From: Baffinella frigidus
Lineage: Eukaryota > Cryptophyceae > Cryptomonadales > Baffinellaceae
Direction of reading: 5' to 3'
DNA length: 29,357 bases
NCBI GenBank assembly: GCA_026770585.1
Contig: MU647121.1
Span: forward strand, 14,919-44,275
Below are positions 69-29,200 of this stretch, one piece after another. Under the pieces are notes generated by a model. The model was not told where the DNA came from and did no database searches. It was given only the letters and a program-made list of their open reading frames with translations. The position numbers and the translations under genes were made by a program. Position 1 is the stretch's first letter, and every line of letters starts with the position of its first letter.

Positions 69-101
69 CGGGGTGAGGATTCAGAGTGTAGGGAGTGCCA
101 C

Positions 102-188
102 CAGAAAGGTTCGCCATGGGTGGTCTTCATGTCGAGGGGGAAGTTGAAGAGCAGCTGCTTGATCGAGTTGCTGAACAGCTGCTCGAAC
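102..188 (-). CDS. UBA1: UBA1 exon 27 (last in window)
   Basis: Encodes (R)[20 protein letters not shown] then KTTHGEPF(W), matching YSNNIRQLLHNFPPD....GAPFW. Donor TTCTG/GTGGCA; the tryptophan codon would be completed by the next exon, off the left edge. Confidence 0.93.
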
Positions 189-2440
189 CTGGGTTAGGGT
201 ACGGGTTTTACGGTTCAGTGTGCAGGGTTCCGGGTTTCTGCTTGATCGAGTTTGAACCTGGTTCATCGTTCGGGTTTCGGGTTTCATGTTTCGGGTTTCG
301 GGTTTCGGGTTTCGGTGTTTCGGATTTCGGGTTTCGGAAACCTCTTGCCAGTTTCGGGTTGGGTTTTGGGGGTTTGGGATTCCGGGTTCAGGGTTTAGGG
401 TTTACACCCGAACCTCTTGCGGGGTTTGGGCCTCAGGTTTCGGTGTTTCGGGTTCTGTGTTTCGGGTTTCTGGTTTCGGGTTTCGGGAACCTCTTGTGGG
501 TTTCGGGTTGGGTTCTGGGTTTCCGGGTTTCGTGTATCGGGAACGAACCTCTTGCGGCCCCACGCGATGCAATCGTTCCAATTCTTCGGCCGGGCATCCC
601 CGATCGTCTCCGACACGGAGGAGACCTGCGCCGAGATGAGTCATCACGTCAGCAATCCACGCCGAGATGAGTCATCACGTCAGCAATTCATGCTGACATG
701 AGTCATCATGTCAGCAATCCACGTCAGCAATCCAAAAGTCGACGGTTGAGTACCGGCACGGTCGACTTTTTCCATGTAAAGGGGGCCCCGAGTGTTTCAG
801 ACACGGAAGATACCTGCTCCGAGATGAGTCCGAGATGAGTCATCGCGTCAGCAATCTTCCAAACGTCGACTGATTAGTACCGGCACGGTCGACTTTTGCC
901 ATTATTGACGAGATTCCAGGCGTCCCCGAGTGCATTCAACAAAACCACCGTGTGGGAGAAGTTCAATAGTGAATCATTGGTATTTGGGGATAGACCGTGC
1001 TCTTGGCGGTGGTGGGCTGGTTCGAAAGAATATTTATTTTACGTCACTTATAACATGGACCACAACGGTCGACTTTTGCCATGGTTCAGCATAGAAAAAA
1101 CACAGAGCAGGACGGAAAATGGCTCCAAGGGAGGATACCGACTCTTCTCAAGTTGACAAGCTGGGTGCGTGGTACAAATCCGTCAACTTTGAAGCGGAAA
1201 AGAGGGGGGAGACCGTGCCCTTGGCGGTGGTGGGTTGGCTGGTGAGCGTCTGGAAGAACTTCTCCTCGTCTGCTACGTACGATGCCGCGTCCTCCACCGC
1301 CTGTTTTCGGGTTAGGAATATATTTAATTAATTTAGTAAGGATTAATTTATTTATTTACTTGTTCAATAAAAGTTTGTTTATTTATTTGTCATTTAATTG
1401 GGGTTTATTTACATAATTAGAGTTTGGGGTTATGGGTTCAGGGGTTAGGGTTTGAATGGAACTTCTCCTCGTCTGACAGGTACGACGCCGCGTCGTCCAC
1501 CGCCTGCGATCGGAACACCTCATTGTTACTGGTGCCCCGCGCGACTGTTCTGCGACTGTTCTGCGACTGTTCTACGACTTTCTGCGACTGTTCTGCGACT
1601 GTTCTACGACTTTCTGCGACTGTTCTGCGACTGTTCTACGACTTTCTGCGACGGTTCTATCCTCGTCTGACACGGACGATGCCGCGTCATCCACCACCTG
1701 CGATCGGAACGACGGGCTACTGTTGCCATCCACTCAAAAGGCCACGACGAACCAAACCCCCCAGATATCAGAAGGGTACGTGACCTTTCCCTGTACAGTT
1801 CGAAGGAAAGGATTTTAAGATTGCAGCCTGCTGAGTGGATACATACGTATGAAAACAGTGCACACCCCGCCTGCGAGAGGAACACCTCTGGTTACTGCTG
1901 CTCCGCGCCCGGACACGCGTACCACACGGTGGACTACCAACCTTTCATCAAAAGTCAACTTGCCTTGATGCAATTAACTTGAAGGATTTTCTGGTGCAAT
2001 TTGGTCACGCAGCACCCTGAATTCCAGCCCCAACGAAACTTTCGTAGCCCACCGTATGGATATCCCGTCAATACCGCATGCGAATCCACGGCCGGCCAAG
2101 AGTGGCAAATTCAGTACGCGACGTTTCGTTTCGTGGTACTAACTGAGTTTGCCTTCCCCGACTTTCCACACGCGGTGATCGACTTTTGGCCTTTTTTCAG
2201 AATCAACTTTACACGTGCATTGTGAAATTTCGACTTGTGACCTGGCGTGGTCGACCCTGAAACCAAAGCATTTCCTGCTCAACGAGCCTGGCGTGCTTTG
2301 CAGTAAATACATCCCCCTCGTACCTGTTCGAAGACGCCCTCGCGTGCCCACTGGATGGTGTGCTCGATCGCGTTCGGGAAGTCCTCAACATGTAGTTGTA
2401 CAGTCCATACATCTGTTTTATAATCACTTCCTGGTACTAA

Positions 2441-2473
<33 letters not shown>

Positions 2474-2547
2474 CACATAAACATATAAATATACATTTAC
2501 ATATAATTTACATATACAAATACATATAATTTATAAATTCCAAGTAG

Positions 2548-2603
<56 letters not shown>

Positions 2604-5600
2604 TTCCATACAAACGGAATATACATATTATATATATATATATATATACATACATACATACACACACACATACATCTAGCGTATAGAGGGGCCTCGCACC
2701 TGCTTGAAGACGCCCTCGAAGTCGTCGCGCGCCCACTGGATGGTGTGCTCGATCGCGTTCGGAAAGTTCTTCAGCGTGCAGATCGGGATCGCCTGCCATC
2801 CCAAATCCCTTTCTTACAAAATTTATAAAAAGTCGTAGTTTTTATGTTTGAATCTAGTGGCCGTGAGACGCAGAAACTGAGATGGCGACGCGTTCTTGGA
2901 GCCATTTGCCATGCAAGGTTCAGTCGCGGCTTTACAAAGCACGAAAGATCAAAGCGCGTTCGGGAAGTTCTTCAGCGTGCAGATCGGGATTGCCTGCAGG
3001 GGTGTAACGTTTAGGGGTTACTAACTGAGACGCTCTTTTGGAGCCATCTACAGCTCTGAGATGCTTTCTTGGAGCCATTTACCGTCACAAACTCCACTCA
3101 CGGCTTTACAAAACATCAAAATCATGGCGTTCTCGAAACCGGTTTGGGGGGTGAAGGAATGGCTCCAAGACCTTCTCGGGGGGGTCGCGCGAGGAGGAGT
3201 AGGATTCCGTCAAGTGCGGGATCACCACCTGTTTCGGGACACGATTCAGTGTTGGACACACCTACTGTTGCACACGATCAGTGTTGGACACACCTATTCT
3301 TGGACACGATCGGTGTCCGGCACACATGATTGGTGTCGGACACACTTATCCGGGACACGATTGGTGTCCGACACACTTATCCGTGGACACGATGCAGCGA
3401 TCCGAATCGCCACCAGTTCGGGGACACGATCAGTGTTGGGCACACTTAATCGTGGACACTGTCAGTGTCCGGCACACTTATTCGGGGACACGATCAGTTT
3501 CCGGCACACGTGATGGCGGGCAAGATCAGTGTACGACACACGCGATGATGAGCAATATCAGTGAACGACACACCTGTTCATGGACACAATGAGTGTCCGG
3601 CACACCTCTTCGTGGACGTGATGAGTGTTGATGGACACGACTGAATACTACCTGGACGTCGCTCTTGGTGCCAAGGGTCCTTCAAGGACAAGATCAGTGT
3701 CCAGCAGACCAATTGGTGGACACGATGAGTATCCGGCACACCTCTTCTTGGACACGAGCGCACCGTCGCGTCCAAACAGAGCGTGTCCTACACACTATCA
3801 CGTCCAGAAAATGAGTGTCGGACACGTACCTGGACGTTGCCCTTGGTGCCGAGGGTGCCGCTCTCGAGGAGCGGCTTCTGGACAAGACCAGTGTCCGGCA
3901 CACCTATTCGGGGACACGAGCGAATACCTGGACGTTGCGCATTTGACCTATTTGGAGCTGCATGTAGCCTACTCGGCGTGTTACCACGTCTCGTCTAACG
4001 CCCCCCCTTCGCCACCTGTACTATACTGCGTCTTCTGGACATGATCGCATACCTGGACGTTGCCCTTGGTGCCGAGAGTGCCGCTCTCGAGGAGGGGCTT
4101 CTGCATGTACACGCACCGCTGGTCCATGTACGTCCGCGCCTGCACGATTAGGGTTCATTTATCGATTAGGTCGAGACAATGTTAAGCAGGAAAAAGCGTG
4201 CAAGATCACAATTTTCGCCGCCGGCACACGGGCGTTGCATCACTTTGGTTTTTGGCGACAGAAATTACCACACAATTTATTTACTCGTCCTAAGTTGACA
4301 ATGATTCTACTACACGTAAACACCGTATTCAATGATACCTGGACGTTATCGAGAGCGTTGCAGACGCCGTGGAGGTTGTCGAAGAAGTCATCTCCGAAGA
4401 TGTGCTCCGTGTCGCTCCCCACCCGCGTCTCGTACGTCTTCACCTGCCAACAGTCAATTTGTTAAGATAGAGAGAGCGCGAGGGAGCGAGGGAGCGAGGG
4501 AGCGAGGGAGCGAGCAAGAGAGAGAGAGAGAGACTGAGAGAGAGACTGAGAGAGGGAGAGAGGGAGAGTTGGTATATTGAAGTATTTGTGAAGATGGCGG
4601 AGCAGACGATGTGCTCCGAGCCGCTCCCCACACGCGTCTCGGAGGTCTCCACCTGTGAAAAGTCGATTTGTCGAGATGTTTGATTTGCTTAGGTTTAGGG
4701 TTTACTGTTTAGGGTTGAGGGTTGAGGGTTGAGGGTTTAGGGTTTAGAGTTAAGGGTTTGGGGTTTAGGGTCTAGGGTGTAGGGTTGAGGGTGTAGGGTT
4801 TAGGGTGTAGGGTTTGGGGTGCAGGGTTTAGGGTTTAAGACAGACCTTGAAACCGGGGTGCATGTCCGTGACCTTCTCCCCCACGGCCGTCGACTTGTTG
4901 GCTCAGGGTGTTTTAGACGCCGCGTGTGGTGTTGGATTCACCTTGTTCGGTATTGCGCCAGGGCCACATTTGCATCATGGAGGCCCGATTTCGTCTCCCA
5001 GTTATTGTACTTTTCGGGTCAGCGCGGATTTTGGATCGGGGTCAGGGAGTCGGGAAAAATTGAAAATATCGAAAAAGGGCTCTAGTATTTGTGACATATT
5101 ATGGGTGGGGGGTGCATCTTGTCATCATATCAATGCATAAGATAGCATAAAATCAAAAATATCGAAAAAGGGCTCTAGTATTTGTGACATATTATGGGTG
5201 GGGGGTGCATCTTGTCATCATATCAATGCATAAGATAGCATAAAACTTTAGATGGACGCACCAATTATCGAGATTTTCATTTCCCGACACCCCGACCCGA
5301 CCTCGAGAAAATCTGCGCTGACCCGAAAAGTACAATACAAACCGTGGGCTGGGCAGGATGAAAAGACTGATGAGTTGTGAGGGGCGCGGACCTTGAAGCC
5401 GGGGTTCATGTCCGTGACTTTCTCGCCCGCGGTGGTTGACTTGAGCTTGTTGATGTCGCTCGGCCGGAACAGGAACTGCTCGGGTTTAGGGTGTAGGGTT
5501 TAGGGTTTAGGGTTTAGGGTTTAGGGTTTAGGGTGTAGGGTGTAGGGTTTGGGGTTTAGGGTTTAAGGTTTAGGGTTTCGGGTTCCATGTCGGTTACGTT

Positions 5601-8600
5601 TCCAACACCGTGTCCATCTATCAGAACCAGACACGTCTCGTTCCGCGACGGAACTCATTCCTGCAGGAATTGCTTCTCTCAAGTGTTTCTACGCAGAAAC
5701 ACTTGTGAGTAGTGTGGCCAGAAAATTTTGAGAGAAGTGTGGGCTGAAACACTTGAGAGTTTTTGGGGAGCCAAATAAATATTGTGCACAAACCTGGCGG
5801 TTGAGGTTGAACTTTTCGATGGTGCCTCCATCAAAAAGTCCAACCTCAAACCGACTGTCGGTTACGCGACCAACGCCGTGTCCATCTATCAGGCCAAGTA
5901 CCCGAAAAACTCGAAAACAGAGCGGGGGAGGCAAAAAAGAATATATATATATATATTGTGTGTACGTACCTGGCATACACAATATCTACTGGAACAACAC
6001 CTGGCATACACAATATTTATTTGCAGAAAAAACTGGGGGGGGTCGCAACCTGGCGGTTGAGGTTGGACTTTTCGATGGTGTCCATGTCCGTGACGTGCAC
6101 CAGGCCCGTCGGGCCGCACCCCACCCCCATCATCGCCCAGTTCTTCAGCACCTCGCACCTGTCGAGTTTATGGTTTAGGGTTTAGGGTGGGGAGTGGGCT
6201 GTGGCGTGAAGGGCTTCACGTTTCTGGTTTCGATTTCGGGTTTGGGGTTTGGGGTTTCGGGTTCGGGATCAAGGATGTAGGGTTGCGCCTACTGTTCAGG
6301 GTTCTGGGTTTCGGGTTTCTGGAGTATAATTCGTAAACCGCACGCTACGGATTCGGGTTTCGGATGTATACACCCTAACACTGAAACCGGGTTCATAAAG
6401 CCGAAACCGGGTTTGGAAGTTTGAGGAACCCGAAAGCGCCAACGAGGAAGTACTTGAGGTTCATAAGCATTTCGTGCAATGTTCTCCCGCAGCACACGTT
6501 TCGTTCCGGGTTTCGGGTATATCCCCCCTAATCAGAAACCGGGTCTATAAACCCTAAGCCATGTTCTAAAAACAAGAACAAAGGGTTATAGACCCGAAAA
6601 AGGGTTCATGAACCCGAAAAGAGGGTGATCACTCCGAAAAAACGGTTGGAAGGTTAACTCCGAAAAAAAAGGTATAACTCCGAAGATAGGGTTGGACGGA
6701 CCCGATAGCGCCAGCGCCAACGAGGAAGTACTTGAGGTTCGTGAGCTTTTCGTGCACCGTCTTCCCGAAGCACAGGATCTGCGAATCGTACCTGTTTCGG
6801 GCTTCGGGTTGAGAGATTGGAAGAGAGGTTTTGAGATCTGGTGGCATCTGCAAGCAGTGCCTGGTGCAAATGCACTATTCGATCCTTCCGACGCACACGA
6901 TCTGCGAATCGTACCTACTTGCGGGTCACGAAACGCGTCAAAACAATCCTCCTGAATTACGACATTGTGATTCGAAAAAATCTAAAATATCCAGAATGTC
7001 AAAAACATCTAAAATATCCAGAATGTCAAAGATGCATTCATGGCGAGATGCGCACCGGCCGCCGTCGCCTTGAATTTCTTCAGGAAAGAGCTCTTCGTCC
7101 TCAATACACACTCAAAACACAGAGTTTGGAGGAGACTGGTCTTCAAGACACACCCAACACCCAACGTTTCGAGGTCAAGACACACTCAAACGCAGCGTTT
7201 GAGGGACGCTGATCCCCAAGACACACGCAAAACACAACGTTTCGAGGTCAAGGCACACTCAAAACGCAGCGTTTGGGGGACGCGCACCGGCCGCCGTCGC
7301 CTTGCATTTCCTCAGCAGAAAGCTCCTCGTCCGGAAGGGCCTGGTGTAGGATTTAGGGTTTAGGGTTCAGGGTTCAGGGTTCAGGGTTTAGGCTTTAGGG
7401 TTTAGGGTTTAGGGTTTGGGGTTTAGGGTTTAGGGTTTAGGGTTTAGGGTTTAGGGTTTAGGTAGAGTTTAGTAAGGGTGTGTTGGGGGTTTAGCAATGA
7501 TTTATGGACCTCAGATGCGTCGAAGACAAAGTGCTGGTTGATCGGCGTGAACTTCCCTTTGGACCAGGAAACTCACATTCCAGGGTCTTGATAGGGGTGT
7601 AAACCAGGGTCTTGATATGCCTTTAGGGTTATACCTCGGAGGCGTCAAAAACGAAGTGCTGGTTGCAACCAGGCCACGCCGGCGTCAACCTCCCAGTCAT
7701 CCGGGGAGTGCGTCACCATTCCCGGTACACTCCGAAGAAAAGAAAACTAAACTTAGAAATGCGCGTGCCCTGTAGCCTCCTGGGCGGTAGGGACCTCGGA
7801 GGCGTCGAAGACAAAGTGTTGATTGATCGGCGTGAACTTGCCGGTCACGCCCTTCATCACTTCCTGCGCCGTGATGCTGCCGGGGGGGGTAGAATTTAGG
7901 GTTGGTGCGTGTGTTAATGGATTGGTCCGGCCGCAGCATCACCTCCAGCACCGTGATGCTGCGGGGGGGGGTTAGGGAATAGGGGAAAGGGAATAGGGAA
8001 CAGGGATTCGAGTCTAGTGTCATTGACAGGTTTCACACACGATACTCCCTAACCGTTTGGGGTTTGGGGTTTCGGCTTGGATGTGTGTGTGTGTGAGAGA
8101 GGAGGGGGGGGAGGGGGAGGGGGGGGGGGGGCAGCCGAACGGACTACACCCTACACCCTAAACCTCAAACCCTAACCCCCAAACCTGGCAATGAAGGACG
8201 CAATCGGCTCCGCACACGGAGCTGGCTGACTATGCTTAAGTTGACATAGTATCTTCGCGGTACACATCCGTCAACTTCAGGGCGAAAACTCGCCCGGTCT
8301 CGCGAAATTAGTAAGCCCAAATAGACTGGAACCTGCCAATGCCGGAAGCAATCGGCGCTCCGTGCGCTGATCCGGCTCTTTTTCTTTTTCGCCCTAACGT
8401 TGACGGATTGGTACCATAAACCCAGCACGTCAACTTAAGCATAGGCAGCCAACCCGAGTGTGACAGAGCGAGAACCTGCCAATGGCGAATGCGTTTTTTT
8501 GGGAGACAAACGTGTACATCAAGGTCTCTGCCTTCACCTAACGCCCCCCCCCCCTAAACACATAGCTGCCGATGACGGAGGCTATGGGCGCGAGATCCGC

Positions 8601-11600
8601 GCGCGAGACGCGAGTGAGGTCCGAGAAAGGTTGGCTGAATATGCCTCAGCTGACACGCTGGGTGCACGGTACCAACCCGTCAACTTAAGGGCAAAACGAG
8701 CCCGGTACCAACCCGTCAACTCCAGGGCAAAACGAGCCCGGCCTCGGCCGTGTGGTGAGACGAAATAGACAGTGGCAGAGAGCGAGAACCTGCCGATGAC
8801 GGAGGCGATGGGCGCGAGCTCCGCGCGTGACACGCGAGAGAGGTTCCGCATCAGCGCCGCGTCCACCTGTCGCGTCCAGAGAATACACGTTGAAAATACT
8901 GATATCACTCAAGTTGAAAATACTAATATCACTGTTTAAAATACGAATATCATATATATTATTATTAGTACCAGTCCTGTGTCGTGTCCGCTATTATGTT
9001 ATTGACACTTGCCCGGCCCCCAAACGGTGCGATTTACGAGGGGGTGGGACGCGAGACAGGTTCCGCATCAGCGCCGCGTCCTCCTGTCAAGGGTTAAGGG
9101 TTCAGGGTCCAGGTCACAGGGTTTGGGGTTTAGGGTTTAGGGTTTAGGATTTGGAGTTCAGGTTTCAGGGTGCAGGGTTTGGAGAGACACGTGGCCGTCC
9201 CCCAAACAGAGAGCTTTGCACGCCTTCGACACGCGCGAGAGGGTGAGGGTGAATCCTAAACCCCAAACCCGAATGAGGGTCAACTCGACACGCGCGAGAG
9301 GGTCTAACCCTAATCTCCCAAACCCTAATCCCTAACTAAGAAACCGCAACTCGGAACGGAGGTATCCTAAACCCTAAACCCTTAATCCTTAACCCTAAGC
9401 CCTAAGCCCTAAGCCCTAATTAGGAATGAGGAGTCGGAACTGACGTAGCTCGTCGATCCCCAAAACCCTAAGCCCTAAACCCTCATGAGGAAGTCGCGAG
9501 TCGGAAAGGAGGGACCTCGACGACCCCAGACCCTGAGCCATGCACCCTAAGCCGTAAACCCTCATCAGGAAATCGCAAATACGGAAAGGAGGGACCTCGT
9601 CAACGGTCGGCTTGTTGATAATCTTGCCATCCTCTGTGATAATCTGCCAACCAGACAAAGGGGGGTTGGATTAGCTTTGGGCAAAGGGGGTTTGGATTAG
9701 CTTTAGGCAACCAGACAAAGTGGGGTTGGATTAGTTCCGACACATAATTCATTTCACACCAAGGGAATTAATCTTCTTGCCATGCTCTGCGATAATCTGC
9801 AAACGAAGGGGAATTAGCATTTAGGCGCGTTCCTACACAAAATTTATTTTGAAGGAAAATGAGCATTTAGGCGCGTTCCTAGAACGGTGTGCAGAGATGT
9901 TGGCCACGGAAATAATAAAAATGGTAAAAGTTGACGGTTGTGGTACAGTACCAGGGATTTGGGGTTTGGGGTGTAGGCAGGGTGTAGGGTGTAGGGTGTA
10001 GGGTGTAGGGTGCAGGGTGCAGGGTGTAGGGTTTTGGGTGTATGGTGTATGGTGTATGGTGTATGGTGTATGGTGTATGGTGTATGGTGTATGGTGTATG
10101 GTGTATGGTGTATGGTGTATGGTGTATGGNNNNNNNNNNNNNNNNNNNNNNNNNNNNNNNNNNNNNNNNNNNNNNNNNNAGGGTGTATGGTGTATGGTGT
10201 ATGGTGTATGGTGTAGGGTGAAGGGTGAAGGGTGAAGGGTGTAGGGTGTAGGGTGTAGGGTGTGTTGTTGGGCTCGCAACTTCCTTGTTGAATCCCAGGG
10301 CGAGAGAGAGAGAATTGACGCGAGGTTCTTCGCGTGCGTCGCGCGAGGCCACGCCAGGTCATAAACGCGAATTACAAAACGCAACATTTCGCGCTAAAAG
10401 TGTCAACCTACCTTATCCTGGTACAGATTCTTATTATTCCGCAGGCAAATGGCTCCACTTTCCTTCCTCTTTGTTGAATCCCTGCGCGAGTACGAGGATC
10501 GTCGCGTGATCCAAGGTTTCGTTTCAGGTTTCGGGTTTCTGGTTTCGAATCCGGGCCTGCACCAAACCTTGGCAGGGTTCATGGCTTAGGTACCTCCTTG
10601 TTGAAGCCCTGGGCGAGCTCGAGGATCATGTGGTGGTCCTCCTCGTGTGTTGCGCGCGGGTATCCGTTGAGCTGCGCCGAGAACGAGTCCAAGGCCTGCG
10701 ACACGCCACCCGTCAGCATACCATATATCCAGCATACCATATATGTATGGAACTCTCCCCACGCCAGAGGGCTCGAAGGAAAAGGCCGTTTACGAGAAGG
10801 CTGCCTGTGTCCTGTGTGTACCAGGAACGAGAGAAATGTCCACGTTGGACATCGATTTGTACGAGGCGGATCGTCGCGTGGTCCTCCTCCTCGTGCGTCG
10901 CGCGCAGGAACCCGTTCAGCTGTGCCCAACCAATCCAAAGCCTACTCCCACAAACACGTTCAGGGTTGTGCTTAGGGTTAAATGTTTAGGTTTGGGGCTT
11001 TGGGTTTTAGGGTTTGGGGTTTAGGGTTTAGGGTTTAGGGTTTAGGGTTTAGGGTTTAGGGTTTATGTTTTAGGGTTTAGGGTTTAGGGTTCAGGGTTTG
11101 GGGTTGAAGGTTTCGTCTTCAGGCTTTAGGGTTTAGGGCTTAGGGCTTAGGGTTTAGGGTTTAGGGGGGGCACCCAAAATCCGAGGAGGAGCAGGCGTTC
11201 CCGATCTATTTTCCCGTAGTGGGAGGTTGTGAATCGGCTCCAACTTCCGCAAAAAGGAGGGCCCTCCAATACCCTGAAGCAAAACCGACGGTGCGTTCTT
11301 TGGGGGTACTTGGAATCCGAGGAGGAGCTGGCGTTCCCGGTCGATTTTGCCGTAGTCGGAGGTTGTGAATTGCGTTTAGTGAGATGTCGTTGTACCGAGC
11401 AATTAGAACCACGAACATATATGGACCGATCGTAGTACCACGAACATAAACGGATTGATGAAATTAGTACCACGGACATAAATGGACCGATCTGCGAACC
11501 CCTCTGTGTGGACCTGGAATCCGAGGAGGAGCTGGCGCTCGCGGTCGATTTTGCCGTAGTCGGAGGTTGTGAATTGCGGGTCTTGCAGGGACTGCCGCAG

Positions 11601-14600
11601 CGTCTTGAAGTTCATGCGCGCTGCTTGCTTCACCTGTTGTAGTTTGGGTTGGGGTTTAGGGTGGGGGGTTGAGGTTCATGGTTGAGGGTTTGTGGTTGAT
11701 GCTTCACCTGGTGCGGTTTGAGGTGTGCGGTGTGGGGGTGTGTGGTGTGTGGTGTGTGGTGTGGGGTTGAGGGTTGAGGGTTGAGGGTTGAGGGTTAACG
11801 GTTTCGGGTTTCGGGTTTCGGGTTTCGGGTTTCGGGTTTCGGGTTTCGGGTTTCGGGTTTAGCGTTCAGGGTTTCGGGTTTAGGGCCCCCAACCTGCAGG
11901 ACGGTCCCACCCCCCTTGTACTCCCCCATCCCGCGCGTGTCCCCGACCGAAAAACTGAATGGCCCCAGAACCTGCCGTTGGGGGGGGGGCAGGGTTTAGG
12001 GTTTGGGGGTTGGGTTTACACCTGTCAAGAACTGCGAACAAAGGGGGAAAACGAGGGAGAGCCGGGGTTCTCGCGGTTTAGGGTTTAGGGTTTAGGGTTG
12101 AGGAATGGCTCTCCCTCGGTTTTCTCTAGGTCCAGACCTAAAATCGACTTCCATCGGAGGCAGCGCATCGTGCCCGCTGTCCTCCCTCAACCCTTCACCC
12201 TTCACCTTTCACCCTAAACCCTAAACCCTAAGCTGCGAGAAACTTGAACTCTACAACCTAAACTCTGAACCCTAAGGGGTTCCTAAACTCTAAACCCCAA
12301 GGGGCTCCGACCTTGACTTTCATGGGAGGCAGCGTCTCGAGCCCCTCCATGCCCTGCACCCCCGATATCTGCACCAGGTCGCCGTCTTCGAGGTTGTGCC
12401 TGGTGTGGGCATTGGCCTTCAGGATTTATGGGTTATGCTTTGGGGTTTAGGGTTTAGGGTTTAGGGTTTAGGGTTTGGCGTTTGGGGTTTGTGATTCAGG
12501 GGCTGGGGTTCAGGGTTCAGGGTTCAGGGTTCAGGGTTCAGGGTTCAGGGTTCAGGGTTCAGGGTTCAGGGCCCAGAGTTCAGAGTTCAGGGTTCAGGGC
12601 TTAGGGTTTTGAGGAGGCTCATAACCTGTTGAAAAGGGCTCATGCAAAAAACGTTCGCGGTGTAGGGTTTCTGGTTCAGGGGCTGTGACCGGGTGTCTTC
12701 GAGCGTCGAAACGACCCCCACCTCCTCACTGGAGACGTGCGAGAGGAGACACTGCGCGGGGTTCTCGCCGTTCGTGTCCGTCACCTGGTTGGGTGGGTTG
12801 GGGTTTTGTTGTTTGGTGTTTGGTGTTTGTTGTTTGGTGTTTGGTGTTTAGTGTTTGGTGTTTGGTGATTAGCGCGCGCGCAGCGCTGGTGGTTAGCTCT
12901 TCACTGGCGCTGCGCGCGCACGCGCAGCGCTAGTGTTTACTAGCTTGTCACTAGCGTTGTGCGCGCACGTGTCTTCGAGCGTCGAGTCGACCCCCATCTC
13001 CTCCGTGGAGACGTACGAGAGGAGACACTGCGCGGGGTTCTCGCCGTTTGTGTCCGTCACCTGGTGTGGAGGGTTTGGGGTATGGGGTTTGGGGTGTGGG
13101 GTGTGTCAGGGTGTGGGGGTTTCCCGACCCCAACACACGTGTGTCCGAACAAGGGTTTCGGGTTGAGGGTTGAGGGTACTCGCGGTTTAGGCTCTAGACT
13201 TCAGGTTTTAGGCTTTATGGCGTGGGGTTTATTGGTAGCTTACGTTTTGTTTGGCACCCTAAACCATTAGGGATTTATTAGCGGCTTAAGGGGTTATTGG
13301 CAGCTCGTGGTCCTCGCCGGAGTCAACAAAGATGTGTCCGAGCACGGGTTTGGGGTTTGGGGTATGGGGTTTGGGGTATGGGCTTTGGGGTTTGGGGTTT
13401 GGGGATCAGGGTGCAGAGTTCAGGGTTCAGGGTTCAGGATGAAGGAATCTCGCGGATCAGGCTTGAAGCTTTATGGCGTGTTGGGTTTAGCCTTTAGCCT
13501 TTAGGGTTTATTGGGTTTGGGATTTATTGGGTTTAGGGTTTATTGGGTTTGTGGTTTATTGGGTTAAGTGTTTATTGGCGGGTTAAGGGGTTATTGGCAC
13601 CTCGTGGTCCGCGCCGAAGTCGACGAAGATGTGTCCGAACACTCCCCGCGTCTGCGCCATGATGAACCTGGTGTAGGTGTTGTATTCAGTCAAGTAAATA
13701 TCTAGTAAAATAGATATTTAGCAAAATAAATATTTAGTTAACTAAATTAGGGCTGAGGGGCTTGATTTAGGGGGCTAGGGTTGATGGTTTGGGATTAGGA
13801 TTTAGGGTTTAGGGTTTAGGGTTTAGGGTTTGGGGTTTGGGGTTTAGGGTTTGGAGGTTACTTGACGCCCTGTGCGCGGCACGCGTCGTTGATTCGCACA
13901 CACTCCCCGAAAATGCGGTCCTGGGTTTGGAGTTTGGGGTTTGGGGTTGAGGGTTGAGGGTGCAGAGCTCAGGGGAGCAAGGGCATGAATTGCAGAGAAG
14001 GAAGGGGTTTGGGGTTTATGGTTCAGGGTTCAGGGTTCAGTGTTCAGTGTTCAGCGTTCAGTGTTCAGTGTTCAGTGTTCAGTGTTCAGGGCTTAGGGAG
14101 GCTTCAGGGTGAAAGACTCGGGGGGGTTAGCACCGTGCAGACGACGAGCGAATAGCGCGCGACCACCTCCGCGTTCACCTCCGTCTGCCCCCACACCACT
14201 CGATTCAATTTCAAACTCAAATTCAATCAAACTCAAACACCACGCGTCGATCAGCTGTTTCGATCGGCACGTCTGGTTCAGGGTTCAGGGTTCAGCATGG
14301 CCCTGTCGCCTGTCCACATTCCCCTACTCCTTGTCCCCTGCCCCCTGTCCCCTGTCCTCAAGCACCCTGTACCCTACACCCTGTCCGGACCTCGAGCACG
14401 TCAACTTAGTGCCAGCACCGTCAACTTTTGCGATTTATTGTCACGAACCTCGAGGACATGGAAAGTCTCGTGCAGGTTGAGCCCCGCGACCACACAGCGG
14501 GCTACGACAGGATTTTCGGTCCAAAAAGTGCCGAGTTTCCGTTACCTTATCCGTAGGAACCCCCCTATGTCCCTACGGGTTGCCTACCGTAGGGTCCCAG

Positions 14601-19921: not shown

Positions 19922-20211
19922 ATGTCCCCCCCCGCTCTCGTGGGGCAGATGCATCCCATGGGATGGGAACAGACACAACCGCACAAGCACGACACCACCC
20001 CGGACGTCCCCGCTGACCGAACCGCCATGCCCTGGGACGCCTCGCGGAGCGACGCGCCCCCGCGCTCTCCGGGGGAACCCCCCCGGCCGGGGGGGCGCCC
20101 AGTCCATGCAGAAGAAGTCGATGAGCTCGATGCTCTGCTCCGGGCTGTCTACCCGCTGATTCGCAAGTACGAGGAGGACAACGCGTATCCAGACGACACG
20201 CGCGTCATCGA
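19922..20211 (+). CDS. Decarboxylase exon 1
   Basis: No ATG occurs between 19532 and 19921; the ATG at 19922 opens a frame ending EEVDELDALLRAVYPLIRKY (63-82) and EEDNAYPDDTRVI plus GA. This matches the family's N-terminal helix before VI(D/E)..HP. In-frame ATGs at 19949, 19958 and 20027 are alternatives. The first ~60 residues are Pro/Asp/Arg-rich and not recognisable. Donor GA/GTACCC. Confidence 0.8.
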
Positions 20212-23200
20212 GTACCCCCCCCCCTCTTCCCCGCCGCCCTCTGGTCTTCCCCCCTATCGCTTGCCAGGCTGGCACTTCTCCCCATGATGTGATGTGCTGA
20301 AAAGCTCGCGAGATTGCAACGTCTTGGCGGTTGATGACACCCCTTCCGTCTCCCCCCGATCCGCCTCCCGGATCTTCGCGGTTTTGGTCGTGCGTTGAGT
20401 AACCTCGCGATTCCTTGATCGCAGACATCGAGGGGGGCCGGAGCTGCGGAGCGCCTTGGATCTCTCGCTGCCTCCTGAGGGCTCTCGCGCTGCATATGTC
20501 AAATCCTACACCCTACACCCGAATACCGAATACTGAATCCGTAATTCGTACACCCGAAATCCGAAACCTGGTACCCCAGACTCTGAACCTCAAAGCCTGC
20601 ACCCTAAACCTTGAACCCCGAACCCCAAACCGTGTTGAATCCAAAACAATCAACGCGCTGCATGTGTCGAAACCTGGACCCGAAACCCTAATCTCGAATC
20701 CCTATTCCCCTATCCATCAACCCAAAACCTGAAACCCGGAACCCTGACCCCTAAACCCTGAACCCTAAACCCTAAACCTTGAACCTTGAACCCCAAACCC
20801 CAAACCGCATGAAACCCCAAATCATATTTGCGCTGCATGTTTCGAACCCTGGACCCTAAACCCTAAACACGGATGCATGATCCATGATCCACGATCCATA
20901 AACCCTAAATCCGGAACCCGGAACTCTAAACTTTGGACCCTAAACCCTAAACCCTAAACCCTAAACCCTAAACCCTAAACCCTAAACCCTAAACCCTAAA
21001 CCTTGAACCCCACACCGCAAACCACCTTAAACCCCCAAACCATACTGTTGCATGTGTCGAACCGTGGACCCTAATCCCTAATCCGTAATCCATAATCCAT
21101 GAACCCGAAATCTGAAACCCGAACCCCTAAACCCTAACCCCTCAACCCCAAGCCCTCAATCTCAAACCGCACCAAACCTTAAACCTTAAACTTCACGCCT
21201 TACTCGCTTTGCGTGTATCGAATCCTGGACCCAGAACCAGCTGGGCAGGGGGGGGAGGCTCTCTTGAACTGGACGCGGCGAAACAAACATCAAAACGAAA
21301 CGGGGACTCGCCGAGCGTAGCCGCATTCTTCCGCGCGGAAGAATGGGCCCTATTGACTATTGACACCCGTTTTCCACCTGAATTAGGTTGAATTGAAACC
21401 CTCGTAGTAAACCTAAACCCTACACCCTAAAACCTGAACCCTAAACCCTAAACCCTAAACCCTAAACCCTAAACCCTAGACCCTCGTAGTCCACCGTGTG
21501 GACACACGGATCCCCAGTAAGGGAATTCCTGTGCCACCGACCAATTTCATCTCGAAAGATAACTGAATCAGTTCCCAAATTGGCCTTTTCATTTAATTAG
21601 CAAGCCTAATTAAGTTTACTATGCCCTTACTAATTTCTCCTATTCAACCTCCTATTGAAAAGGAGGTCATTCAGTTATGTTCCGAGATGAAATTATAGAA
21701 TGCTAGGGGGGATACTCACTGGGGAAAGCACCGTCTGGTGAGTACCACTGTCCCCGTACAAACCGTGTTTCAAATAGAATATGTTTCCACATTGAATCCT
21801 CCCTCCCCCCGGTGCAATCGTATTACCGATTATTAAAAATCTGCTTGAGACTATGGTGACTTCTCAAATCTTGATTTATTGTCCAATGAAACAAACCACA
21901 CGCCCGGTTCAGCTATCGCCCTGGTACAGACCCTGCCCTAGAAGAGTCCCCTGCGCCCCTGTCGACTAATCCTCGCGTTCCCTCGTTCAAATTTCCGCTG
22001 AACCGCTCACTGCATGGGTGCCAGCACCAAATCCACAAACAGCGCATGGGTCAGCACCAAATCCGCTCACAGCGTTGGGGTCAGCACCAAATCTCCGCGG
22101 AATCCCGCGGTGTGGACCAGGTCACATTTTTTGCTGAATCCTTTAGTGTGATAAGGTGACAAAGTTTGGCTGAATCTCTTGGTGTGGAACAGGTGCGGAC
22201 GTGTGAGGAGGCGATACGGTACTCTGTCCGCACGTCGCACCCCCGATTCATGAACCAGGTCCTCCCTCTACCCCCCACAGCGGACTTCCAAGGGATTTTG
22301 AATAACCACTAAGCGACAAGACCGATGACCCTACGGTGGGCAACCTGTAGGGACGTAGGGGGGTTCCTACGGATAAGATAACGGAAAGGTGGCCCGATTT
22401 GGGCCGAAAGTCCCTTCGTAGCCCGCTGTGTCGTCTGTCTCAGGTGGTCTGTCTCAGGTGGGTTTACTGCCAGACTACTCCCAAGTTGACGCTCTGGGTT
22501 TCCGGTACAGATCCGTCGGAACGTTGGAGCGGAAACGAGCCCGGGCTCACCTTATTGGTGAGCCCGAATCAGACTGAGATCCTCGGCGCATCCACCCCCC
22601 ATCCGGGAAGCATTTGGGTCTGCGGAGTCCTCGTTACGAATGTCGGCTGACCCTGGGACCCGTGACCCAACGGGGGGGGGTCGTAACCTGTCCCCCCCTC
22701 GACCGCAGCCGTACGTCGGGTCGGAACCCGCGGGGCAAGTAACGGATTAGTAAACCCTTTATGGTTAGTGTTTAGGGATTAGTCGACCTCCAACACCAAA
22801 CCCGAAACTCTAAGCCTGAAACCCGCGAACAGCTGTACGCCGGGTCGGTGCCCGCAGGGCAAGTAGCGGATGAGTAAACTCTTTATGGTTAGTGTTTAGG
22901 CATTACCCCAAACCCCAAACCCCAAACCCCAAACCCCAAACCCCCACGCAGCTCTACGCCGGTTCGGAGCCCGCAGGGCAAGTGGCGGAGTTCCTCGCAG
23001 CGGTGCTCAACTCGACAGTGCACACGTACGGCGCGGGGCCCGTCTTCACCGTCATGGAGCGCGAGCTCATCGCTCAGGTTGCGAGCCCCCCCCCTCCCAG
23101 GGATATACAGGTAGCGAGGCCCTCACGCCGCGACACCAGTTCGTGTAAAGTTGATTCTGGAAAATTATGTTTCAATGTTTGCAGACATGGACCGTCGTCT

Positions 23201-26200
23201 TCCCTAAACCCTGAACCCTAAACCTTGCAGCCTAAACCCTAAACCCCAAACCCCAAACCCCAAACCCTAAACCCTAAACCCTAAACCCTGAACACTCTTA
23301 AACCCCAAGCAATCTTAACCCCTGAACCCTAAACACTGCTCAGGTAGCAACACTGGTCGGATTCGATGCGGACGAAGCGGACGGGGTCTTCGCCCCCGGG
23401 GTATACCTCCCTCCCCTTTGACCTTTTGCAGATTGGAGCTATGTCTTGGCGCTATTGTTCTGGAGCTATTTTGGGGGGATACCATAAATTACGACTCCTC
23501 CAAACCCTAAACCCTAAATCCTAAACCCTGAACCCTGAACCCTAAGCCCTAAGCCCTAAGCCCTAAACCCTAAACCCTAAACTCTAAACCAGGGGTCGTA
23601 TTCGAACATGACGTCAAGTGACTCGGTTGCTGACCTCCCCCCGACCTTGGCAGGGGTCGTACTCGAACATGACGGCGCTGCTAGTCGCGCGCAACGAGCT
23701 CTTCCCCCACGTCTCGCGCCAGGGCTGGCAGGTCAGAGCCTTTCTTCTCAAAAGTTGATGGGTTTGTACCGCAGACCCGGTATGTCAACTTGCGAATAGT
23801 CAGAGCTCTTCCCCCACGTCTCGCGCCAGGGCTGGCAGGTAAGCGCGGGTTTCGCATCTGTTGGCCACACCAGAACCACAAAATAATGCCAAACGACGGC
23901 GCTGGTACTAAACCGTGAACGTTCGCCATGGTTTCTTTGTTGCCGGGAGCTAGTCGCGCGCAACGAGCTCTTGCCCGACGTCTCGCGCCAGGGCTGGCAG
24001 GTTGCGTGCCATACCTACCTCCACGTGCGACGCATGAATACACCCTCTGCGCACAAGGGAGCCTCCTGCACGTGCGACGCTTGCAACACCACACCATTCT
24101 CTTGCCCCAGCGCGTTGCTCACCGTGAGAGAACTTTATTACTACCAACACGGCCGCCATGGCCGCCATGCATTGTATTCCCACCGAGGCTGCGTCTGAGC
24201 AGGAACCAGAGACCTTTGAACCCCAAACCCTACACCAGAGAGCGAGAGACCTCTACTGGCCCTCTGCGTACAAAGGAGAGTCCCCCGTGCGGCGGTTAAC
24301 TAATCATCACTTTCCTGGTACAAGAACCTGCCTGGTTTAGTCACCGTCCCGGTACAAACCCTACCGGTGTTAGCCAACTTGCCGGGGTTAGTCAACGGTC
24401 GTGCGGCTGAATTAAACATCCACGAACAAACCAGGTTAGTTAAATCTCGACAAACCCTCTGGACAGGAGGGGGACCGTCCTGTGGTATACACTTCGGTTC
24501 AGGCCCACTACTCGGTACCCCCCCCCCCCCTGGTTTACAGGTTTATGGGTTAGAGTGTGGGATTCGGGTTTAGGGGTTGGGGTTTGTAAAGCGACTCGTT
24601 TCAAAAATTCCTCAAACCCTGAAACCTGTACACTACCCGGTACACCTTAAACCAGGGGTTCCCCTGTGTCTGTTGCCCCCACCACTCATTCTGAGGTCTC
24701 GCTGCTGGGGCAGGAAAACGAAACTTGCTTCAAATTGGTCTAATCGGAAAAGGGAGAATCAACGTACGGTTTTAGCAGAGACACCATACCTTCTCAACAA
24801 ATACACCATACGTTCTTGCTTTCCCTCCTGGGGCTTTTACTACTGCACAAAGAGAGAGCAGCTTTATTGAGGAAGCACACATCAGATTAATTTTTTTCAT
24901 CATGGGAAAACAATCAGAATAATTAGACCGCCCCAGTTACTCCTGAGCTAAATATATTGCTATTCCTCCTGAGGTCTGGTTGGTGGGTCAGGTGACGACG
25001 GCGGTGATGAATTCACTCAACAGGCTTCCCACCCAGGAAATAGCTACGAAGAGAAAACCAAGAAAAAACTGCCCCTCCCCACCGCCGAAAACTCATGTTT
25101 GAGCCATTCCTCTGAAGGTATTTTGCGTGGGCCAGGCGAATTCTTATTATGTTCAGTTACCCCACAGCCAAATATATTGCGATTTCCTCTGAAGGTGGTG
25201 TTTGGGGTCAGGTGAAGAAGGCGGTGATGATCGCGGGGATGGGCTCCGATAACCTTATCGAGGTGCCCCCCTCATGTTCCTCTTCTTGTGTTTGCAACAG
25301 CAACAGTTGTTGTAAAAGACCTGATGCTCTCCTTCCTCCTCGTGTTCCTGTTCTTATTTTTTTGAGGTTCCTTCCTATCTTGTCCAAGTGTATCGTGTTC
25401 AAGTGTGGGACACCTGCTAGTGTAAGATGGGCTCCGACAACCTTATCGAGGTGCCCTCGATGGGCTTTGACAATCTCATCGAGGTGCCCCCCAGTCTTTC
25501 TGTGCTTCTTCTTACTCTTCTTGCTCTTCCTCTTCCTCTTCTTCTTTTTTCCCCCCCCTCTTCTCCTTCTTCTTCTTTTTCCTCCTCTTCTTCTTCTTCT
25601 TCTTCTTCTTCTTCTTCTTCTTCTCCGTGTCGCCCAGTCTTCCCAACCCACACGAATTCTCTGATTCGATTCGCGTTACACACCCTGCAGGTGCCTACCG
25701 ACGCGCGTCGGGGTGATGGACCCGGCGTGGTTGGAGTCGTGAAAGTGGTTGACTCATTGGGGATTTGCATTGACTTTGGGCGTTCCAGCGAGTGTTTTTG
25801 ACCGAACATGTTGGCTTGAACGCTCTCAGGTGCCTACCGACGCGGGGCGAACAGCGGTGTTAACTTTGCGAGCGGGGTTGACTTTGCGAGTAGGATCGAC
25901 TTAACGTCTTGCTCGCTCACAGGTGCCAACCGACGCGGACGGGGCGATGGACCCCGCGTGGCTGGAGTCGCACATCATAGCGTCCAAGGACAACGCCCGC
26001 CGCCCCTTCTTCGTCAGGTTAATCACCTCATTTGTTTCAAACTGATTCAGTTTGAAACACCGTTTCATGTTATTTTAAGGCTGGAAATTGCTATCTTAGC
26101 CCTCGGCATAGCTATACTCCAACTCAAACCCCACCCAGAAGATTGGCACGCTCTCCCTACTCCCTAAAACCTACCCCCCACCCGAACCCCGAAACCCGAA

Positions 26201-29200
26201 ACACTCTGGATACTGGTTCTCACCCTGTCTTGGAGCAGTTTTTCGATGACTGTATCCTGATGTCGTGTCTCTGGTCGTTTTCTCTGAATCCTAAATCCTC
26301 AACCCCAAACCCTAAAACATAAACCATAAACCCTAAGCCCCAACGGCAGCGCGACCGCGGGGACGACTGTTCTTGGAGCCATCGACCCGCTCCCGGCCCT
26401 CCACGACATCTGCCAACGGTACGCTCCAACGCGTTCTTGTGCCCCATGTTAACCGCGGATAGCGTTCTTGTGCCCCCATTAACCGCGGATAGCGTTCTAG
26501 AACGTTCTAGAATGGTCGGGAATGTGTATAGGGGCAGGGACGCACCGCGGGGACCATTGTTCTTGGAGCCATTGACCCGCTCCCGGCCCTCCACGACATC
26601 TGCCAACGGTACGCGTCTCGGGTTTAGGGTTTGGAGTTTGGGGGTTCGGGGTTGGGGATTTGGAGTTTGGGGTTTGGGGTTTGGGTTTAGGGTACGGTCC
26701 AACGCATGCGCCCGTCAGTTTTGAATGGTATGCAGACACGCCCCGGGGTGCAGATGAAAGCTTGCTTCTGGCATTTTCACCTTGTATGCAGACACGGTGT
26801 GGCTGCACGTCGACGGCGTGTGGGGAGGCGCCCTCATGTCTCCCGATCTCCTGGTTTTGAGGAGACCGGAACTTGATTCTCCCGTTTTGCGGTGCAAATC
26901 CGTCAACTGTCGGCGAGAAAACGATCAGTCAACCCGGCTGAGGGCTAGGGGGTTGACCTTTCTTCGTGTGCAGGCACAGGGTGTCACTGACGGCACGGGG
27001 TGTGGGTGGATGAAGGCATCTGCGTCTGACATACTTTTCTTGGTGTGCAGGCACGGGGTGTGGCTGCACGTCGACGGCGCGTGGGGAGGCGCCCTCATTA
27101 TGTCCGACACCCACAGGCAAGACCAACTACCGATATCCAGAAATATTCAGATGGCACAGGTTTGTGAAATTCCGACTTGTGACCTGGCGTGGGCTGTGTC
27201 GAGGCTAAGATGGCAAATTCCGTTGACCGATAAGGTGCACAGACCTTTGGATCACTCATTTCAATGCTGAGGGTAATGCAGAAGAAGAGCAAGAAAAATC
27301 CGTTGACGTGAAGCTGCTGGTGCGCAGACACACGATTCTCGATTCTCGGGTTGGAGAAGGAGGGCAGCTTCTGCTTCTGGTTTCGGAAATACAGAAAAAT
27401 GAGTGAGACCTGGAGAGGGACCCTGGGGAGTTTGTCGGTCAAGGGTTGAGGGTTTAGCAACGAGAAGATTGCGCTGATCTGAAGCTATTGGTGCGCAGAC
27501 ACAAGCTGATCGAGTTGGAGAAGGCGGACAGCTTTTAAGGCGCATAGACGTTTGGATCACTCATCTCGAGGCTGCCAGTAATCAAGGACAAGGCCAAGGA
27601 CGAAGATGCGCTGACCTGAAACTATTGGTGCGCAGACACAAGCTGAGCGGGCTGGAGAAGGCGGATAGCTTCTGCTTCAACCCCCACAAGCTCCTCGGCG
27701 TCCCCCTCCAGGTTTCCTTCCTTTTCCCCTGATACCGAAACCTTGGACCCGAAATCCGAACCCCGAAACTGTATTCCCGAAACACAAACCCCGAAAGCTC
27801 GTCGGCGTCCCTCTCGAGGTCCTACTCCATATCCCGTCGCATTCCCTTTCCCTTTCCCCTACTCCCTTTCCCATGCGCCCTTTCCCTTTCCCTCTCCCTT
27901 TCCCCTATTCCCTTTCCCCTATTCCCAAATCCTGAAACCCGAAACCCGAAGCCGTACACCCGACACCCGAAACCCGAAACCCTATTCCTGAAACCCGCAC
28001 CCCCAAACCCTAAACCACCATAAACCCCCAACGTCCTGCAGTGCTCGATGCTGGTAGTGAAAAAGCACGTCAGTTCTCATTGGCAGAGTTCCTGCACCCT
28101 AACTACCAATCCCCAACCCCCAAACCCTCAACCCTCAACCCCCAAACGCTAAACCCTCAACCCCAAACAGTGTTCGATGCTGCTGGTGAACAAACACAGC
28201 GGGGCGCTCGAGCGCGCCAACAACACCGATGCCGACTACCTCTTCCACGCAGGTTCCGCAGCACACCTAATTTTGTTTAATAATATAATTGTATACAATG
28301 TACAAGTGTTTTTGAAGGACGGCGTGGTACTATTTTACAAGGTAAAATACGAGCTCGTAACGAACGGTTCCAACGCTCTGCGCAAATCTGGTGAACAAGC
28401 ACGGTGGGGCGAACATCGGTGTTGTTGACGCCGATTACCTTTTCCACGCAGGTTCCACAACCGGACCCCATCGCCTGACAGAATATTTTCGTCTCGATTT
28501 TTTTTTTTGGAAGTACACTGCGGTGCTTTTTGGTGTATTTTTACAACGCTCATTTAACAATACGCATCCCTTTCCGTACAGGGGCGGGCGGGGGGGTCGA
28601 CTTGGGGCAGAAGTCGCTGCAGTGCGGACGGAAGCCCGACTGTCTCAAGCTCTTCCTCTGCTGGAAACGCTTCGGCGCCAAGGGGTAAGTGCGGGGGCCC
28701 CTATCACCGTTCAAGCCCCCTGTCAACGTCAATGCCCCCTATCACCGTTAATGCCCCCTATGGCCGTTAATGCCGAGGTGTCTTTCTGAAATCTGACGGG
28801 CGCTGTTTTGACCATGAACGATTCTTAGTCAAGATACGTCCTGTGGCCCCAGGGCTTTGGATCGAGGGTCTGGGGTTTCGGGTTTGATCGTTGACTCTAG
28901 TGATGTGGACTGTCTGAAGCTCTTCTTCTGCTGGGAAAGCCTCGGTTCTAAGGGGTGCGACGCCCCCTATGCCTTTAGGGCTTTGGATCGAGGGTTTGGG
29001 GTGGAGAGTTTTGCGCGTGGACCCTAGCACTGTGGTTATGTGGCATGCTCTTCCTCTGCTGGAAACGCTTTGGTTCCAAGGGGTGGAACCCCTCAACTCT
29101 AAACCCTAAACCCTAACCCCTACACCCGACACCTTAAATCCTAAACCCCAAACCCTCAACCCCAAACCCTAAACCCTGAACCCCAAACCCCAAACCCCAA

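Follow-up and report, generated by a model that had tools for sequence, protein, structure and literature searches.

Intron lengthening is usually inferred rather than observed. Neighbouring copies of an exon with their splice sites are known as mutually exclusive tandem exons. The closest described system appears to be the repair of staggered breaks in the neointrons of Daphnia pulex; as described in PMC4202315, internal repeats are present in 55 of 90 neointrons, 33 repeats of 4-12 bp are common to an intron and its adjacent exon in new introns, and repeated breaks are proposed as a passive means of intron lengthening. Tandem genomic duplication of AGGT-bearing exon segments is described as a route of intron gain in a review (PMC3443670) and in a potato case (PMC4974935).

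The window, which is the whole stretch of 29,357 nt analysed here, belongs to a 382 Mb assembly of the cryptophyte Baffinella frigidus and contains one 50-N gap. Two genes are predicted in it from homologues and from the single open frame that each gives once spliced:

100 to 17419, minus strand, predicted ubiquitin-activating enzyme E1 (UBA1-like), 26 exons in the window
20086 to 29303, plus strand, predicted PLP-dependent (glutamate/cysteine-sulfinate-like) decarboxylase, 15 exons

In both genes, CAG is present at 39 of 39 acceptors, the donors are GT without a clear consensus at +3 to +6, and the longest of the 38 real internal exons is 126 nt. Exons are abbreviated E (E1) and D (decarboxylase); E1 exon numbers are one lower than in the preliminary description of this DNA.

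Copies of neighbouring exon edges are confirmed in these introns. The same 41 exons were scored against all 39 introns, and adjacent exon-intron pairs were compared with non-adjacent ones. A match score of at least 30 was reached by 36 of 78 adjacent pairs and by 0 of 1521 non-adjacent pairs (non-adjacent maximum 29); since the latter are an internal control, chance is ruled out. The counts were 40/78 versus 13/1521 at a score of at least 25, and 30/78 versus 0/1521 at a score of at least 40. Reverse-complement matches of at least 30 occurred in 2 of 78 adjacent and 2 of 1521 non-adjacent pairs, so the copies are direct and not inverted.

At a score of at least 30, there are 47 copies, which belong to 29 of the 41 exons (20 of 26 in E1, 9 of 15 in the decarboxylase) and lie in 28 of the 39 introns. 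The earlier figures of at least 21 of 27 and 11 of 15 exons were slightly higher; weaker copies seen by eye (E2, D2) fall below the threshold and are left out of the counts, and the threshold is by construction blind to repeats of 4-12 nt. The copies are about 20-95 nt long, with at most three to any one exon of the window, and stand 40-556 nt from their own exon, none of the 47 being nearer than 40 nt. They are local, on the same strand and graded from near-identical downwards; 14 indel events across the 47 copies agree with the earlier statement that they do not maintain frame. Copies of nearly full length exist only for E8 and D10, with that of E24 less close. The copies are listed below; an exon-intron match is the basis of each entry unless another is given, and the four examples named earlier (copies of E8, E11, D6 and D4) are all among them.

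E1 gene:
17172 to 17218, minus, exon 1, in the downstream intron
15848 to 15900, minus, exon 3 start, in the upstream intron
14449 to 14489, minus, exon 4 end
14652 to 14680, minus, exon 4, second piece, in our reading parted from the first by a 160-nt repeat at 14492-14651
13304 to 13345, minus, exon 7 end, reaching about 35 nt into the intron, with CT where the exon has GT
12969 to 13060, minus, exon 8, near full-length, in the upstream intron (92% over 92 nt of the 95-nt exon)
12146 to 12175, minus, exon 9 end
11311 to 11374, minus, exon 11 end
11178 to 11234, minus, exon 11 end, second copy, ending 4 nt short of the edge
10878 to 10941, minus, exon 12 start
10467 to 10500, minus, exon 12 end
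10282 to 10304, minus, exon 12 end, second copy
9775 to 9796, minus, exon 13 start
9049 to 9081, minus, exon 14 start, peptide in P0005
8566 to 8623, minus, exon 14 end
7510 to 7557, minus, exon 15 end
7635 to 7665, minus, exon 15 end, second copy
7056 to 7100, minus, exon 16 end
6885 to 6914, minus, exon 17 start
6435 to 6496, minus, exon 17, ending 11 nt short of the edge
5794 to 5831, minus, exon 18 end, adjoined by an inverted copy (a hairpin, read by eye)
4846 to 4897, minus, exon 19 end, peptide in P0005
4605 to 4652, minus, exon 20 start, peptide in P0005
3830 to 3880, minus, exon 21 end, peptide in P0005
3652 to 3678, minus, exon 21 end, second copy
2955 to 2993, minus, exon 23 start
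2328 to 2385, minus, exon 23 end region, peptide in P0005
1424 to 1503, minus, exon 24 start
1660 to 1695, minus, exon 24 start, second copy
996 to 1020, minus, exon 24 end
238 to 257, minus, exon 26, weak copy

Decarboxylase gene:
22833 to 22870, plus, exon 4 start
22712 to 22746, plus, exon 4 start, second copy
23593 to 23613, plus, exon 6 start
23803 to 23838, plus, exon 6 end, 36/36 identical
23949 to 24000, plus, exon 6 end, second copy
25426 to 25450, plus, exon 8 end
25691 to 25739, plus, exon 9 start
26541 to 26608, plus, exon 10, full-length
26796 to 26837, plus, exon 11 start region
27499 to 27534, plus, exon 12 start, reaching about 40 nt into the intron
27347 to 27377, plus, exon 12, second copy
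27787 to 27818, plus, exon 12 end
28427 to 28451, plus, exon 13 end
28388 to 28411, plus, exon 13, inner piece
29044 to 29082, plus, exon 14 end
28908 to 28954, plus, exon 14 end, second copy

P0005 is the deposited model of the E1 gene; it reads peptides of five copies as coding. The earlier suggestion that the copies leave decoy splice sites is supported.

Most of the duplicated tracts stop at the splice signal. The exon edge is reached by 39 of the 47 copies (24 downstream, 15 upstream), and GT is kept in 19 of the 24 downstream copies and AG in 15 of the 15 upstream ones. Identity in the downstream copies is 0.91 over the last 10 exon nt and 0.90 at GT, and falls to 0.44 at +3 to +6 and 0.28 at +11 to +20; in the upstream copies it is 0.89 in the exon, 1.00 at AG, 0.52 over the next four nt and 0.41 at 11-20 nt. 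Compared with mismatched pairs, 35 of the 39 edge-reaching copies have no residual similarity beyond the edge; five of the 39 (E7 downstream; E8, E20, D4 and D12 upstream) keep at least 60% identity 11-30 nt into the intron. Therefore, of the earlier claim that many copies take in both the splice site and adjoining intron, the first part holds and the second fails for most copies. Age was rejected as the reason for the missing flanks because near-identical copies have none either: where the exon part is 95-100% identical (D6 on both sides, E11, E21, D8, E14, E23), flank similarity is not above that of mismatched pairs. The outer ends of local repeats in the window lie 0-9 nt outside the exon in 35 of 58 entries and at 10-160 nt in 20 of 58, and at the other loci described below they lie at 0-10 nt in 21 of 45 and at 11-160 nt in 22 of 45; several entries are possible per exon, so these counts are not independent. 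Detection bias as a source of the pile-up was checked by also counting repeats that lie wholly inside introns.

The copies are not confined to this locus. In 12 stretches of other contigs, copies were found at 19 of 72 called exons, which is sparser than in the window, and matches lay in 21 of 144 own flanks versus 3 of 864 foreign flanks. Exons there were called by codon bias. The caller had been trained on the exons of the window, where its 24 calls, 3 of them false, overlapped 21 of the 41 real exons; this caller defines the exons and edges at the other loci, save for CCT-type hits and a gene in L008 that we take to be CCT1-like from its conserved order. When Pfam cores were used instead, 6 of 17 scored at least 30 in their own flanks, but for two of the six the flanks of other loci, which are probably paralogous CCT exons, scored 46. 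The count of own versus foreign flanks is preferred because these two cores matched other loci about as well, and its three control hits may be paralogous CCT exons of the same kind. One locus (L010) has five copies around one exon; in L012, 0 of 11 called exons had copies. Hence the description of nearly every intron as affected is roughly right for the two genes of the window and does not extend to the other loci sampled.

The explanation that we favour, at slightly below an even chance, is that introns grow by short, local, same-strand break-and-fill duplications at splice signals, and that these duplications then decay. Recurrent duplications of about 20-95 nt would lengthen the introns. 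Each duplicated tract is bounded on one side by the splice signal (immediately downstream of GT or upstream of CAG) and on the other by any point within the exon. Such a footprint is expected of a staggered break between exon and intron, the proposed cause, which would be gap-filled and joined with filler; the two copies are, or become, parted by small palindromic elements, telomere-like arrays, minisatellites or unique DNA. At D6, a palindromic element with the 8-nt direct repeat GTCAGAGC on both sides lies between the exon and its first copy, and in our reading the two abut once the element is set aside. The copy attached to the exon body would stay in use, while the outer one would turn intronic and decay, presumably neutrally. 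Splicing may tolerate outer copies where recognition works on short exon units (exon definition), because an exon spliced at the edge of an edge-reaching copy would measure at least 139 nt for all 39 of them, longer than any real internal one.

Some observations count against break-and-fill duplication. Uniformly placed breaks would not produce a pile-up at splice signals, and the bridging repeat expected of an insertion is uncommon, strings of at least 6 nt being shared by filler and copy for 4 of the 24 downstream copies and 1 of the 15 upstream ones (mismatched pairs, 3.5% and 6.3%). The mismatch rate by codon position is 0.070, 0.064 and 0.174 for positions 1 to 3, and 53% of mismatches are synonymous versus 27% expected if the copy changed at random. 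Part of this excess comes from synonymous changes in the real exon, but a period of coding use is possible for some copies.

It is also conceivable, at slightly less than one chance in four, that the splice site itself sets the break or copy boundary, so that transcription and splicing would shape DNA duplication and drive intron growth and genome expansion in this cryptophyte. Splicing-coupled copying, in which the splicing machinery would fix the boundary, seems unlikely; breaks might, for instance, be tied to nascent RNA bound by the spliceosome, or RNA fragments that stop at splice signals might serve as repair templates. The tract ends do fit the information content of the splice signals (CAG at every acceptor, GT with little beyond it), of which the copies keep about as much. 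However, RNA or cDNA inserts should take both orientations, and 36 direct versus 2 inverted adjacent pairs are found; the retention of GT, moreover, means that free spliced exons were not the template.

Ordinary tandem duplication of long border-spanning units, with faster decay of the unconserved intron half, is rather improbable. Such events exist, five window copies keep their flanks, two repeat pairs in L010 lie 351-352 nt apart, and downstream copies at other loci (n=7 only) fade gradually (identity 0.64 at +7 to +20, 0.44 at +21 to +30); the less sharp drop, the five copies and the 20 window entries ending 10-160 nt out also weigh against break-and-fill duplication. Nevertheless, units of 40-556 nt would copy that much intron, which would still be visible at these exon identities, and conservation of the exon would slow divergence at most about twofold, which does not suit the flankless 95-100% identical copies. 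The sharp edge and the repeat ends piled 0-10 nt outside exons therefore leave this explanation inadequate. Thus, of the growth by duplication across exon-intron borders first proposed, the local, same-strand and graded character stands, and plain cross-border duplication fails for most copies.

Two further explanations are less probable still. A mobile element or nuclease cutting beside CAGGT could leave target duplications of variable length; small repeat families in introns, the repeat-flanked element at D6, and the two D4 copies, which are alike past their inner end yet part near CAG, are in line with this, but the sequences between exon and copy are not one family (window self-comparison), and no motif beyond GT is common to the intron starts. 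Equally improbable is gene conversion, by which the functional exon would refresh the exon part of old duplications; similarity does stop about where the constrained signal does, but by eye the inner ends are sharp and not eroded, even in 95-100% identical copies. An assembly or haplotype artefact is highly improbable: the assembly is a draft (10 of 14 arbitrarily placed stretches were all N, and the window has its gap), but the copies have diverged and most have a flank of their own; they are on the same strand, adjacent only and present on other contigs.

This Arctic single-celled alga thus offers an unusually clear record of intron growth, with footprints of graded age in most introns of two genes, and we know of no duplication model that predicts footprints ending at splice signals. 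Near-perfect decoys beside real sites almost without donor consensus make it a test case for splice-site choice and a trap for gene prediction, with practical effect on deposited models such as P0005. The genome of strain CCMP2293 is given as 534.5 Mb and that of Guillardia theta as 87.2 Mb (PMC9756366), and such intron growth could be part of this difference; the same paper lists strain CCMP2045 as conspecific.

Mutually exclusive tandem exons are full-length with both splice sites, whereas most copies here comprise only part of an exon, carry a single splice signal and have an unrelated inner end. Pseudo-exons bounded by AG and GT were likewise rejected, as by eye the inner ends have no consistent AG or GT. 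Introners, as described in PMC9860276, resemble this locus in that their introns hold small elements flanked by target-site duplications; here, however, dispersed elements are few and no common intron-wide family was seen in the window's self-comparison, and the copied material is the host exon's own edge. Tandem genomic duplication (PMC3443670) shares the local duplication spanning AG|GT, with splice signals on both copies. It implies homology through the whole repeat unit, which the flanks of most copies here lack, and a copy that abuts the acceptor and runs on as the next exon, whereas here the copies sit mid-intron with no such continuation. By eye, neither the sequel of downstream copies compared with the next exon start nor the lead of upstream copies compared with the previous exon end exceeded the match to their own junction; intron ends compared with upstream exon ends gave no signal (p=0.42). 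Likeness of intron starts to the next exon start was weak and insufficient (4.28 versus 3.85 matches of 12, permutation p=0.029), and was apparent on inspection for no more than E24, E25 and decarboxylase intron 8. The neointrons of Daphnia pulex, as described in PMC4202315, come closest, since there too direct repeats of adjacent exon termini lie within the intron. Their repeats are 4-12 bp, a size to which our threshold is blind, whereas those found here are 20-92 nt, number up to three per exon and five in L010, and have one end at the splice signal.

Gene models of the ubiquitin-activating enzyme gene (E1, minus strand) and the glutamate-decarboxylase-like gene (plus strand) were built from splice signals, phase, and homologues. 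They comprise 26 exons within the window and 15 exons, respectively, and each set gives a single open frame when spliced. For 13 of the 26 E1 exons (13 to 25), the complete-codon peptides are present unchanged in P0005, a deposited partial Baffinella frigidus protein model matching E1. The 39 introns are 194-1695 nt long (median 543 nt) and the 38 internal exons counted are 48-126 nt long. The GC content of the window is 0.532, and that of the published CCMP2293 assembly (534.5 Mb) is 53.9% (PMC9756366); the main text of that paper never uses the word 'intron'. All 39 acceptors end in CAG. The donors comprise 38 GT and one GC (decarboxylase intron 11, position 27117), show no clear consensus at +3 to +6, and are preceded by G as the last exon base in 36 of 39 cases.

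All 41 exons were aligned against all 39 introns with a score threshold of 30, which was reached by 36 of 78 adjacent exon-intron pairs and by none of 1521 non-adjacent pairs (maximum 29); for the reverse complement, it was reached by 2/78 and 2/1521 pairs, respectively. Thus the imperfect copies of exon edges in adjoining introns reported in the preliminary description are confirmed, with the example coordinates reproduced within about a dozen bases, and their restriction to adjacent introns in direct orientation supports the proposed origin by local duplication. An iterated search of adjacent introns gave 47 copies from 29 exons, 20-92 nt long (median 39) with identities of 0.77-1.00, at 40-556 nt from the exon. 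Since they occupy 28 of the 39 introns, the claim that nearly every intron is affected holds roughly for these two genes only; on other loci of the genome, just 19 of 72 called exons have a copy. Mismatch rates between copies and exons at codon positions 1, 2, and 3 are 0.070, 0.064, and 0.174, with 14 indel events, and 53% of the changes are synonymous against 27% expected under random change. This excess partly reflects synonymous change within the real exon, and some copies may have been coding for a time. Below the threshold, repeats of about 50 nt upstream of decarboxylase exon 3 (22100-22195) were seen by eye, as were five faint repeats of the end of exon 2 inside its long intron (20484-21230).

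The main new result, which sharpens the earlier observation, is that most copies end at the splice signal. In 39 of 47 copies, the outer end of the alignment lies no more than 3 nt from the exon edge; the edge profile leaves out the eight that stop short (one each of E1 exons 4, 11, 17, 23, and 26 and decarboxylase exons 11, 12, and 13). In downstream copies (n=24), identity is 0.88-0.91 over the last 20 exon nt and 0.90 at the GT, then 0.44 at +3 to +6 and 0.28 from +11. For the 15 upstream copies, the values are 0.85-0.89 within the exon, 1.00 at the AG, and 0.87 at the C of CAG; identity then falls to about 0.52 in the few positions that follow and to 0.32-0.41 past 10 nt. The GT is intact in 19/24 downstream copies and the AG in 15/15 upstream copies. 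Since the acceptors are all CAG and the donors lack a clear consensus at +3 to +6, the copies keep about the information-bearing part of the junction. When the following 60 nt were compared with gaps allowed, flank similarity above the 95% level of mismatched pairs was absent in 35 of the 39 edge-reaching copies; therefore the suggestion that duplication ran across the border and included intron sequence is not supported for most copies. The four exceptions are the downstream copy of E1 exon 7 and the upstream copies of E1 exon 8 and decarboxylase exons 4 and 12. Those of E1 exon 8 and decarboxylase exon 4 lie in repeat-rich C-runs, and that of E1 exon 7, the only downstream copy to extend far into the intron, has lost its GT, as have four other downstream copies. 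When local direct repeats around exon edges were counted, those lying wholly in introns among them (58 rows), 35 outer ends fell at 0-9 nt outside the exon, 20 at 10-160 nt, and 3 inside it, a density per base about 26-fold higher at 0-9 nt than at 10-160 nt.

A possible scheme for these copies is that a short stretch was duplicated and an insert came to separate the duplicates, as would be expected of a staggered break that is gap-filled and rejoined with additional DNA. We favour this duplication-plus-insert reading since it agrees with the spacing, the direct orientation, and the sequence lying in between. A dispersed, partly palindromic element recurs in the window.

Dispersed element in the window, from self-comparison
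1137-1206, 8213-8298, 8383-8460, 8629-8706, 18416-18494, 22473-22539, and 23748-23808; both orientations; AAGTTGAC...GTCAACTT element

In one arrangement that can be taken apart stepwise, the order 3' of decarboxylase exon 6 is GTCAGAGC, a palindromic element, a second GTCAGAGC, and then the copy; by our reading, removal of the element and one repeat brings together two units of about 40 nt that lie directly end to end and extend about 4 nt past the donor. Splicing probably passes over the outer copy because it recognises exons as short blocks: an exon that used this copy would measure at least 139 nt (median 305), exceeding the longest real internal exon (126 nt). Outer copies would decay afterwards. 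Candidate explanations for why one tract end lies at the splice signal are that splicing determines where the break falls, that CAGGT directs a cut, or that gene conversion is confined to constrained sequence.

Copies also occur beyond this locus. Of 24 further stretches sampled from the assembly, 12 carried sequence (79,694 bases) and the rest were all or nearly all N; codon bias gave the 72 exon calls, in 11 of the 12. With a copy defined by a score of at least 35 within the called exon's own 700-nt flanks, 21/144 own flanks were positive, compared with 3/864 when the flanks came from exons at other loci and 3/144 in reverse complement, so that the pattern is not confined to the window. Rates per stretch vary from 6/9 (L015), 5/8 (L009), and 4/14 (L008) to none among the called exons of L012 (0/11), L028 (0/6), and L031 (0/7). 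The exon edge is reached by 22 of 31 copies. The 15 upstream ones show a window-like drop, from 0.90 at the AG to 0.32 at 7-10 nt, and the seven downstream ones lose identity more slowly (0.93 at the GT, 0.64 at +7 to +20, 0.44 at +21 to +30, and 0.27 after), so the sharp edge is a weaker claim there. Outer repeat ends again cluster at the edge (45 rows): 21 fall at 0-10 nt, 22 at 11-160 nt, and 2 inside the exon. Copies were also found for 6 of 17 exon cores defined by Pfam profile in CCT-type genes, located on another three contigs; for two of these six, the control scored equally high.

P0005 contains peptides of five decayed copies (9049-9081, 4846-4897, 4605-4652, 3830-3880, and 2328-2385). 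Therefore, predicted proteins of the Baffinella genome may carry false internal repeats.

Several other repeats were observed. Telomere-like heptamers in the 39 introns are strand-biased in sense orientation (128 CCCTAAA, 15 TTTAGGG). Strong bias to a single strand is also seen on L008 (54 and 2), L012 (48 and 0), L014, and L021, and a lesser one on L009. A 160-nt repeat is inverted between the two genes (14492-14651 and 22273-22431, 85% identity), and its E1 member appears to have landed within a pre-existing copy of exon 4, with about 12 nt remaining on each side. At 5003-5337, two copies of a 77-nt segment (100% identity) are separated by 17 nt and lie within a 30-nt inverted pair (97%), and a degenerate minisatellite based on GGACACGATCAGTGTCC occurs in E1 intron 21 (3240-3950). 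Inspection by eye shows a hairpin at 5794-5860, made up of the exon-18 copy and an inverted self-copy that precedes it; elsewhere, inverted exon matches in adjacent introns are scarce. In E1 introns 24 and 25 and decarboxylase intron 8, the intron start resembles the start of the next exon (e.g. GTCTCC, GTTCG), which may be a vestige of intron gain.

No earlier description of exon-edge copies was found in searches of open-licence PubMed Central papers. Introners have been described from 5% of species (PMC9860276), and the main text of that paper contains no word starting with 'crypto', nor Guillardia or Baffinella. Routes of intron gain in a review include tandem duplication and break repair (PMC3443670). 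In Daphnia, repeated staggered breaks have been proposed to lengthen new introns; however, the repeats that these introns have in common with the adjacent exon are 4-12 bp (PMC4202315), whereas the copies in the window are 20-92 nt.
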